A stretch of 64,000 nucleotides of DNA from Pseudomonadota bacterium (GTDB lineage: Bacteria > Desulfobacterota > Syntrophorhabdia > Syntrophorhabdales > Syntrophorhabdaceae), in contig JAPLKB010000016.1 of the NCBI GenBank assembly GCA_026388275.1, positions 1-64,000 on the forward strand, given 5' to 3'. Both the position numbers and the translations under genes were made by a program. The notes beneath the pieces were generated by a model that did no database searches, was not told where the DNA came from, and saw only the letters and a list, made by a program, of their open reading frames with translations. The first letter of the stretch is position 1, and each line of letters starts with the position of its first letter. Below are positions 11,990-13,790 of the stretch, in pieces.

Positions 11990-12223
11990 TTATAGTAAAA
12001 GCTCATGCATCTCGCTTATGTGGATGGTAGATTCCAGTGCTTCAATAACTGCTTCCTTCTGTTCCGGGAGGAAGCGCAGGCAGACTCCACAATCGGAGCT
12101 TATGCTCCGCGGTACCGGGATGAGTTTGTGGGGTATGCCTGCTCCTTTGAGTATCTTCTCTGCCTTCATAACATGACTTACAGAGTCAAATAATGCAACG
12201 CAGTAATGCTGATCAGCTTTCAC
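11990..12223 (-). CDS. DUF3343 protein (putative Se/S carrier)
   Basis: A 77-residue protein of the DUF3343 family, with the pattern VALFDSVSHVMKAEKILKGA, the PVPRSISSDCGVCLRF core and a conserved cysteine pair (C-x2-C). These proteins are encoded next to yedF and are thought to handle selenium or sulfur. Here the ATG overlaps the yedF stop by 4 bp, so the pair is translationally coupled. No selenocysteine machinery (selA, selB, selD) is in the window. Confidence 0.85.
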   Translation of the reverse strand: MKADQHYCVALFDSVSHVMKAEKILKGAGIPHKLIPVPRSISSDCGVCLRFLPEQKEAVIEALESTIHISEMHELLL

Positions 12224-12834
12224 GGCTTGACAATCCTTCCTGCTGTTGACAGAGTTCCTGCAATATCATACATATTTGATATAGTCCCTGCGCCGATCCT
12301 GCCGGTAAGATTAAAATAGTTTGCGCAGGTGCCACATATAAGCAGCTTCACGCCCTTTTCCTGGAGTGCCTTCAGGTCGTCGATAACATCAGAGTAGGAA
12401 GCTGTAAGTTGCACGCCGGTATTATAAAAGATCATTATATCCGGCTTATGATCCAGATCAACAGCAGTGTGTATGAATGCCTTCATAAGAACTGCACCCA
12501 GTTCGTCGTTTCCGTGTCCCATGATACTTGATGCTATAACAAATATGGTAGGTCCCTGCGCAGACATCGGTACATCTTCAGAGCACATGCACGTCGATGC
12601 TGCATCTCCTCCGGTCTTTTTATCCTGTTTTTTAATATGCATCCTGAAAATACCGCCGGTCTCCTCTGTTATGTCAACGGCACATCCTGAACTTACAGCA
12701 AGGCGCTTAACGTTTTCCCTTGCAGTCTCATTGTCTACAATAACAGTCACATCATTGTGCGAATCCAAAGCCTTTTTTGTAAGAATAACCGGTTCAGGAC
12801 ATGCAAGTCCCTTTGCATTAACCAATTCCGACAT
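12220..12834 (-). CDS. yedF: YedF-type sulfurtransferase-like selenium metabolism protein
   Basis: A 204-residue two-domain protein. Residues 1-70 form a TusA-like domain with the GLACPEP motif (active C12); residues 90-204 form a DsrE/DsrF-like domain with several cysteines, including CGTCANYF. This is the family named yedF in selenium-utilising anaerobes; the reaction is not established. It sits in a minus-strand run: regulatory leader, reductase relic, TusA-like pseudogene, yedF, DUF3343. The start has AAAGGAGG upstream. Confidence 0.88.
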   Translation of the reverse strand: MSELVNAKGLACPEPVILTKKALDSHNDVTVIVDNETARENVKRLAVSSGCAVDITEETGGIFRMHIKKQDKKTGGDAASTCMCSEDVPMSAQGPTIFVIASSIMGHGNDELGAVLMKAFIHTAVDLDHKPDIMIFYNTGVQLTASYSDVIDDLKALQEKGVKLLICGTCANYFNLTGRIGAGTISNMYDIAGTLSTAGRIVKP

Positions 12835-13198: not shown

Positions 13199-13306
13199 TT
13201 ATCTATAGCCCTGCCTTTTTGAGATATTAATATGTTCCCAAAGGAGCGCGTCATAGGCATTAAGATAAAGACCCAGATTCGACCACATTTGTGTGTAATT
13301 TGACAT
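13199..13306 (-). pseudogene. N-terminal relic of a double-cubane-cluster reductase / 2-hydroxyacyl-CoA dehydratase-like gene
   Basis: An ATG at 13306 with a near-perfect ACAGGAGG ribosome binding site opens a 35-codon frame starting MSNYTQMWSNLGLYLNAYDA. This resembles the opening of the 2-hydroxyacyl-CoA dehydratase D-like double-cubane-cluster proteins (pattern Y..MW..LG.....HD.L). The frame stops after ISKRQGYR, where the family continues for about 380 residues. Such genes often neighbour DUF3343 and yedF, which supports the assignment. The start signals have survived, but nearly the whole gene is deleted. Confidence 0.55.
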
Positions 13307-13323
13307 GTAAACCTCCTGTGAGA

Positions 13324-13445
13324 TAAAAAAATCCGGCCGCAGGCATCTGCGCCGGATTCACAAGAGGCGTGATAATATGGTTAAGGCGGAGAAACTGCGG
13401 TAACGGTCATAAAGGGAAGCCGCACGGGCTCCCGATTAGTTTCTC
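13324..13445 (-). promoter_or_regulatory. Structured leader with terminator: candidate riboswitch or attenuator
   Basis: Reading the minus strand, an 8-bp closing stem (GAGAAACT at 13445-13438 with AGTTTCTC at 13396-13389) encloses an inner hairpin (GGGAGCC at 13433-13427 with GGCTTCCC at 13421-13414). About 30 nt later comes a strong intrinsic terminator, and about 20 nt after that the ribosome binding site of the reductase relic. A nested junction followed by a terminator in a leader is the layout of a riboswitch or attenuator. I could not match it to the Moco, c-di-GMP, cobalamin, THF, fluoride or SAM consensus from memory. The ligand is unknown. Confidence 0.5.
13325..13358 (-). terminator. 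Intrinsic terminator in the leader
   Basis: Minus-strand hairpin AATCCGGCGCAG (13358-13347), loop ATGC, and CTGCGGCCGGATT (13342-13330), a 12-bp stem with one bulged C, followed by six T. It stands before, not after, the reductase relic start, so it probably controls read-through into the relic-yedF-DUF3343 transcript. Confidence 0.8.
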
Positions 13446-13558
13446 AACTTAATGGAATAAATATATTTTCTATTCTGCACATATCTTATTAAACATCCTT
13501 ATTTTTTGATTATACATATTACCCAAAAAATCTATAAAAAGTCAAGACTTAGACGCTC

Positions 13559-13790
13559 ATACCAAGTCGCATTCAAATGCACATTGAGGCAGCGACGATG
13601 AGCCTACGCAGGCGTACAAGGATTTGCTTAGCTCACTCAGTGAGCGAGAGGGGGAGGCCGGGGTACCCACCACAGTGGGTCGAGATTTGCTGGCGGAGGG
13701 GGCGACCGGTTACCCGCTTGCGGGTGTCCCGGAAATAGGGGAGTGCAAGGAGGAGATATCAAAGATGTGCGATTGAATGCGACTTGGTAT
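13559..13790. repeat. MITE-like element, 232 bp, with terminal inverted repeats
   Basis: The left end 13559-13583 and right end 13766-13790 are inverted repeats matching at 23 of 25 positions, both starting ATACCAAGTCGCATTCAA. Inside are a GCTCAC/GTGAGC hairpin (about 13630), an ACCCAC/GTGGGT hairpin (about 13663) and ACCCGC/GCGGGT (about 13713). No protein is encoded. Parts recur at 16.1, 20.0 and 36.4 kb. Confidence 0.85.

Follow-up and report, generated by a model that had tools for sequence, protein, structure and literature searches.

A conserved leader with an in-frame UGA and a SECIS-like hairpin as a probable selenocysteine attenuator of selenium genes

The conserved leader described here is, as judged from sequence analysis, quite probably a transcription attenuator with selenocysteine (Sec) as the sensing codon, which would read the supply of Sec-tRNA. 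It was analyzed in a stretch of 64,000 nucleotides (positions 1 to 64,000 of contig JAPLKB010000016.1; hereafter the window). The element is real and conserved, and it lies on the minus strand. The analysis showed a short ORF with fixed spacing, SECIS-like geometry, mutually exclusive pairings, promoters belonging to the leaders themselves, and an association with selenium genes and Cys isoforms. From these observations we infer translation of the ORF, Sec insertion, the positions of the ribosome and the direction of regulation.

Structure and conservation of the leader

The leader reads on the minus strand of our contig G000:C16 (the genome consists of 71 contigs). Read leftward, a promoter-like site is followed by a nested stem, a hairpin with a U run, a Shine-Dalgarno sequence (SD) and a reductase relic of 35 amino acids. 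The parts of the locus are as follows.

13509 to 13545, minus strand: promoter-like site of the leader, TTGACT/TTTATA and TAATAT/TATAAT (promoter scan)
13381 to 13482, minus strand: leader ORF, 33 codons with an in-frame UGA, MCRIENIFIPLS-U-ETNREPVRLPFMTVTAVSPP* (predicted)
13444 to 13446, minus strand: UGA, proposed Sec codon, invariant in the 17-sequence alignment
13439 to 13452, minus strand: 5' strand of the closing stem P1, containing the UGA (81.8% of cells paired)
13415 to 13433, minus strand: SECIS-like hairpin GGGAGCC-CGUGC-GGCUUCC, 10 nt 3' of the UGA (folding, published model)
13385 to 13395, minus strand: GUUUCUCCGCC, 3' strand of P1 and antiterminator strand, directly 5' of the leader stop codon
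13359 to 13367, minus strand: CCUCUUGUG, able to pair with the SD CACAGGAGG across the terminator hairpin (minimum-energy fold)
13346 to 13353, minus strand: GGCGCAGA, 5' arm of the terminator hairpin, which pairs with the antiterminator strand
13324 to 13358, minus strand: terminator-like hairpin and U run (94.5% of cells paired)
13312 to 13320, minus strand: SD CACAGGAGG of the downstream gene
13199 to 13306, minus strand: relic of a double-cubane reductase (DCCP) gene, 35 codons and then a stop
12220 to 12834, minus strand: yedF, selenium metabolism protein, intact (TIGR03527 above cut-off)
11990 to 12223, minus strand: Se/S-carrier-like protein (DUF3343), by likeness to the homologue L074:7948-8175 (PF11823)

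A first-pass annotation of this DNA had described a nested stem with an 8-bp closing stem and an inner hairpin, followed by a terminator and the ribosome binding site of a reductase relic, and all of these parts were located on the minus strand. The 8-bp closing stem is formed by GAGAAACU and AGUUUCUC, with more pairs extending it outward, and the SD CACAGGAGGU precedes the 35-aa relic. Intact homologues of the relic, which are found behind the same kind of leader, belong to NF040772. The window has an intact leader, but only a remnant is left of the first gene behind it; the expected targets are yedF and the Se/S-carrier gene. Immediately 5' of the leader promoter, at 13559-13790, lies an inverted repeat with 26-nt arms (92% complementary, 180 nt apart), which resembles a small mobile element of the non-autonomous kind. 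Of 46 leaders, 30 have their own promoter-like site, compared with a mean of 6.1 in shuffles.

Folding of the region 13300-13470 on the minus strand gave -53.7 kcal/mol (z = -3.87), and none of 200 shuffles was as stable. The interval of the first-pass annotation, folded as the plus strand, gave z = -3.07. The terminator-like hairpin was not among the listed matches of a consensus terminator scan, probably because its stem has a bulge. A search of Rfam found nothing at gathering scores, with chance-level matches only up to E = 10, and a known Rfam riboswitch or leader family was rejected on this ground. The earlier remark that the leader resembles no known riboswitch class agrees with this.

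Among 40 relatives searched at the DNA level, 12 have homologous leaders, at 18 places in all, our own genome counted. A covariance model was built from 17 of these 18 leaders; L016, which is near-identical to the L010 leader, was left out of alignments A1 and A2. The model found 41 places in 22 of the 46 genomes of the order, three of them in our own genome; the class-level search covered the same 46 genomes. In an alignment of 42 model matches, one of them found beyond the class, the pairing covers 90.0% of cells, and both sides have changed in 19 of 32 pairs; the alignment was itself fitted to the structure, and none of 500 shuffles reached the pairing or covariation values. L091:2115 was left out of alignment A5 by the E-value limit. 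The search for homologous leaders that the first-pass annotation had proposed thus gave covarying stems, and neither a lack of conservation nor an Rfam match, which it had named as evidence against the element, was seen. The element therefore stands.

Beyond the class, eight candidates per genome were scored, so that absence there tells little. Matches in the phylum with E-values of 1e-6 to 1e-3 were mostly plain hairpins without an ORF, L062 being an exception. At L140:335-463 the full layout of ORF, UGA and hairpin precedes a DoxX-like gene, and yet its model E-value of 0.01 misses the threshold, which indicates that the models miss real copies. In another locus (L093:3263-3739; G015:C1:142262-142738), a single HdrA gene is preceded by two near-identical leaders, which lie 337 nt apart in tandem.

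The leader ORF and the SECIS-like hairpin

An upstream start, in most copies 12 codons away, shares its frame with the UGA of the closing stem. Between this UGA and the next stop, 36 of 42 copies have exactly 20 sense codons. In the remaining six, the tail has 19 codons in two, 22 in one and 39 in one, and the UGA is lost in two. The last two, L073:2837-2971 (TAA) and L090:4213-4344 (CGA), are natural counterparts of stop and sense mutants. Indels in the ORF are of 3 or 6 nt, that is, in frame. Tails of 17-23 codons were also found in distant copies, where the layout is kept despite a different sequence, both at DCCP genes in other MAGs (L137, L138, L142 and L143) and elsewhere in the phylum (L062, L242, L244 and L248); L140 has such a tail as well.

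In the 36 copies with 20-codon tails, the synonymous fraction was 0.252 in frame versus 0.171 and 0.145 in the other frames; of 2000 column shuffles, 56 reached the in-frame value, and the bases concerned are also under constraint from the RNA fold. The codon test supports coding modestly, short of proof. A leader-peptide attenuator is expected to carry a short ORF with a regulatory codon, and the ORF found here, the translation of which is predicted, has a fixed UGA and a fixed stop.

All fetched loci were also scanned without a covariance model for a start codon, a UGA, a gap of 4-18 nt, a CC-NG[GU]NN-GG hairpin and a limited tail. In these loci, about 2 Mb of DNA that was enriched in leaders by the way the loci were obtained, the gap between the UGA and the hairpin was exactly 10 nt in 46 of 50 matches, and the other four had four different gaps. 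The commonest hairpin loops were CGGGU, CGUGC and CGGGC.

The inner hairpin fits the published consensus of bacterial SECIS elements, and Sec would be inserted through SelB. As set out in PMC13188914, the bacterial model has an apical loop of 3-9 nt on an upper stem of 4-16 bp, a G at loop position 1 or 2 with G or U as the usual next base, a distance of 16-37 nt from the UGA to the apical loop, and a minimum free energy (MFE) of -7.5 kcal/mol or lower. The stem of the leader hairpin has 7 bp and its loop 5 nt, with the helix paired in 95-97% of cells. The apical loop lies 17 nt from the UGA. The G stands at loop position 2; it was required by the scan, and yet it is invariant in the earlier 17-sequence alignment. 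The isolated 19-nt hairpins reach -7.5 kcal/mol in 38 of 48 cases and miss it in 10, the copy in the window having -10.3 kcal/mol.

The native selenoprotein genes of these genomes were also inspected. The HdrA genes have the loop AGGU from nucleotide 23 in all four examined. Most FdhA copies have GGUCU at nucleotides 19-23, and the MFE fold shows the loop in 5 of the 14 listed UGA copies. In a stretch confirmed as E. coli fdhF, the position at which GGUC begins matches that of native FdhA.

Alternative pairings and proposed mechanism

The strand GUUUCUCCGCC can pair either with the UGA-holding 5' strand (81.8% of cells) or with the 5' arm of the terminator. The latter, antiterminator pairing was found in 93.5% of cells in alignment A3 and 92.4% in A5, with slid controls at 56% or less, and its value was reached by none of 500 shuffles. 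When the copy in the window was folded, the closing stem formed 11 of 12 pairs without a ribosome, the antiterminator 7 of 7 pairs with a ribosome placed at the UGA, and the terminator 10 of 13 pairs with a ribosome placed at the final stop. Antiterminator and terminator are thus mutually exclusive, as expected of an attenuator, with mixed folding across copies: over 45 copies, the antiterminator was supported in 18 and the terminator in 33. By eye, the terminator hairpin is flanked in many copies by CCUCC on its 5' side and GGAGG on its 3' side, and the SD may thus be buried too.

A mechanism can be proposed on this basis. The ribosome would translate the short leader ORF up to the UGA, next to which lies the SECIS-like hairpin. 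With enough selenium, SelB would bring Sec-tRNA, and the ribosome would read 20 more codons and halt at the final stop. There it would cover GUUUCUCCGCC, the terminator would form and the downstream genes would be off; the outer stem of the terminator would also bury the SD. In the absence of selenium, a release factor would end translation at the UGA, and the ribosome there would hold the 5' strand of the closing stem. The strand GUUUCUCCGCC would then be free to pair with the terminator's 5' arm, and the polymerase would read on. Since Sec readthrough would mean termination and a stop at the UGA antitermination, the downstream genes would be induced by selenium starvation.

Genes behind the leader and their Cys and Sec isoforms

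Curated family models identified the following behind the leaders: DCCP, its activase, a cysteine-desulfurase-family protein, YedF, the Se/S-carrier protein, HdrA2-like and VhuD-like proteins, SelD, SelB, the formate dehydrogenase alpha subunit, MetNIQ-like transporters, a rhodanese related to a selenoprotein family, corrinoid methyltransferase proteins, and the arsenosugar radical SAM (rSAM) (seleno)protein ArsS with its glycosyltransferases. Some family scores lie under the curated cut-offs, so that those names denote likenesses. Several of these families are tied to selenium by others (PMC5322559, PMC10418091). The targets of an attenuator are expected to be tied to the sensed amino acid, and the genes found here are selenium genes and Cys isoforms.

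The isoforms were compared at the site where HdrA carries either NDCSMC (Cys) or NDCSMU (Sec). HdrA behind a leader on the same contig had no in-frame UGA in 9 of 9 cases. Among leaderless HdrA with at least 60% identity and the site covered, a hand count gave a UGA in 37 of 46 and none in 9 of 46; the count leaves out less similar rows, rows that stop short of the site, and G042:C183, in which the leader is linked via split contigs only. In the fetched flanks of 30 HdrA loci, every leader that was detected belonged to a Cys-type copy. The UGA form of HdrA is also present in 7 of the 9 genomes with a leader-linked Cys HdrA. No leader was detected at nine Cys-type copies of 62-72% identity (G000:C31:30330, G006:C150, G024:C41, G025:C81, G026:C2, G027:C52, G029:C144, G030:C11:67474 and G031:C145), which may represent another subfamily or be under other control. 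Both FdhA genes contiguous with a leader lack a UGA (Cys), and a third, split over two contigs, is also of the Cys type. Among the other FdhA genes covering the site, an in-frame UGA was found in 43 of 44, a count that omits G031:C379 (site uncovered) and the split G042 copy.

By a hand count over the 46 genomes, SelB or tRNA-Sec scored above cut-off in 22 of 22 leader genomes and in 22 of 24 leaderless ones. The leaders thus occur within Sec-decoding genomes and are not implied by Sec decoding. SelB was under the cut-off in three leader genomes (G004, G019 and G020), and tRNA-Sec was present in all three; the objection that the leader does not track SelB is weakened by this finding.

At two loci, L096 (G012:C131:4584-6598) and L079 (G023:C5:19400-21422), a tRNA-Cys(GCA) that is scored as tRNA-Sec as well, and then a second SelB, come directly behind the leader. 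Each is likely a selC*/selB* pair controlled by selenium. Short remains of the DCCP start were observed between the leader and the next gene in the window (13199-13306), at L070:461-682, at L079 just after 4155 and between the two leaders of L093. The leader often outlives the DCCP gene, as if leader and DCCP 5' end had been copied to new genes. A general link to YedE transporters was tested and not found, a UGA-hairpin leader being present at 1 of the 30 best YedE loci versus 2 of 600 shuffled regions. Three matches of the leader model (R2), in G197, G130 and G158, do precede YedE-like genes.

Discussion

Other interpretations of the leader have to be weighed. If the ORF were accidental, a riboswitch for a selenium metabolite such as selenide or selenophosphate would account for a structured, conserved leader before selenium genes and for a terminator and antiterminator that exclude each other. 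An aptamer, however, gives no reason for a fixed frame, in-frame indels and a kept stop position and UGA, and the core bases here are codons and a SECIS-like hairpin; we regard a riboswitch as distinctly improbable. Our first idea was repression by SelB, which would bind the hairpin together with Sec-tRNA while the UGA stays untranslated and the ORF is secondary. In the E. coli selAB leader, a SECIS-like element and SelB act in translational control, and no UGA is read. Binding of this kind would agree with the fit of the hairpin to the SECIS model and with Sec decoding in the leader genomes. It leaves unexplained, however, the ORF, the conserved UGA at a fixed 10 nt and a tail of 20 codons with its end immediately 3' of the antiterminator strand. 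It was dropped once the open reading frame through the UGA was seen, and we consider it unlikely.

The UGA might also be an ordinary stop of an attenuator that answers general translation or another signal without Sec. A ribosome at the UGA is indeed enough by itself for the antiterminator in the window copy, but the frame stays open to an end fixed at 20 codons past the UGA in most copies, the spacing is SECIS-like, and the regulon is one of selenium genes with Cys isoforms; such an attenuator seems very improbable. It is scarcely credible that the ORF encodes a small functional selenoprotein acting in trans, with a terminator that merely ends the transcript. The C-terminus of the peptide is kept, with AVSPP in 21 of 36 copies (the distant L142 ends in AVSPP and L138 in AVFPP), but the rest is poorly conserved, several copies per genome each precede a different gene, and the antiterminator pairing covaries. 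Attenuation at a Sec codon remains our preferred reading. Of the earlier description as riboswitch- or attenuator-like, the attenuator part is borne out by the exclusive pairings, and the small-molecule riboswitch part is disfavoured by the translated-looking ORF, its in-frame UGA and the SECIS fit. Likewise, the suggestion of a selenium-, sulfur- or cofactor-related ligand holds as to selenium, the signal being, in place of a ligand, most likely the supply of Sec-tRNA(Sec) read by the ribosome. The first-pass observation is correct and was undersold.

In attenuators of the trp, his and ilv type, a short leader ORF contains the regulatory codons, and the position of the ribosome chooses between antiterminator and terminator. 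The present leader would share with these the leader ORF, the regulatory codon, the choice made by ribosome position and the control of genes tied to the amino acid. Unlike them, it would use a single UGA with a SECIS hairpin as regulatory codon, the failure of decoding would be termination at the UGA instead of stalling at a hungry codon, and the default targets would be Cys isoforms and selenium genes. The hairpin resembles bacterial SECIS elements in its stem, in the loop G followed by G or U and in its distance from the UGA. Known elements serve protein synthesis, whereas this one lies inside a 33-codon leader ORF and not in a selenoprotein gene. Regulation of the leader would depend on SelB and a hairpin of the SECIS type, as it does for E. 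coli selAB; unlike there, an ORF, a terminator and a conserved in-frame UGA before the hairpin are present.

In Methanococcus maripaludis, according to PMC11097638, a shortage of selenium turns on Cys isoforms of HdrA and related enzymes, the LysR-type repressor HrsM acts, and the step that senses selenium is stated to be unknown. The Sec/Cys isoform logic is alike in the two cases, and the expected sign here is therefore also on when selenium is short; unlike in M. maripaludis, an RNA leader would be the sensor. The selC*/selB* pair, a tRNA-Cys with a tRNA-Sec-like shape and a second SelB, was described in PMC7609411. The pairs at G012:C131 and G023:C5 are like it, and they stand directly behind a leader, while the accessible text of that review names no upstream control element. 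We found no precedent for a Sec-codon attenuator in the open-licence papers searched, which agrees with the earlier suggestion of an undescribed class; a description elsewhere is possible.

We consider it fairly likely that the leader is a gauge made from the genetic code, in which one Sec codon and a SECIS element measure charged Sec-tRNA and switch between the selenoproteome and a cysteine backup. On this reading it would also control selenium uptake and trafficking (DCCP, YedF, SelD, MetNIQ-like), arsenosugar-type rSAM clusters and the selC*/SelB* pair, and would reach beyond one class to several families of the phylum and to MAGs labelled Spirochaetota. A short ORF, a UGA, 10 nt and a CC-NG[GU]NN-GG hairpin make up a simple signature for finding such leaders elsewhere. 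If true, the leader would define a selenium regulon that gives context to DCCP, DUF3343, the MetNIQ-like transporters and the DoxX and rhodanese genes, and would tie the puzzling selC*/selB* pair to selenium status. The 21st amino acid would then join the codons used by attenuators, and the leader would be one group's answer to how microbes sense selenium.
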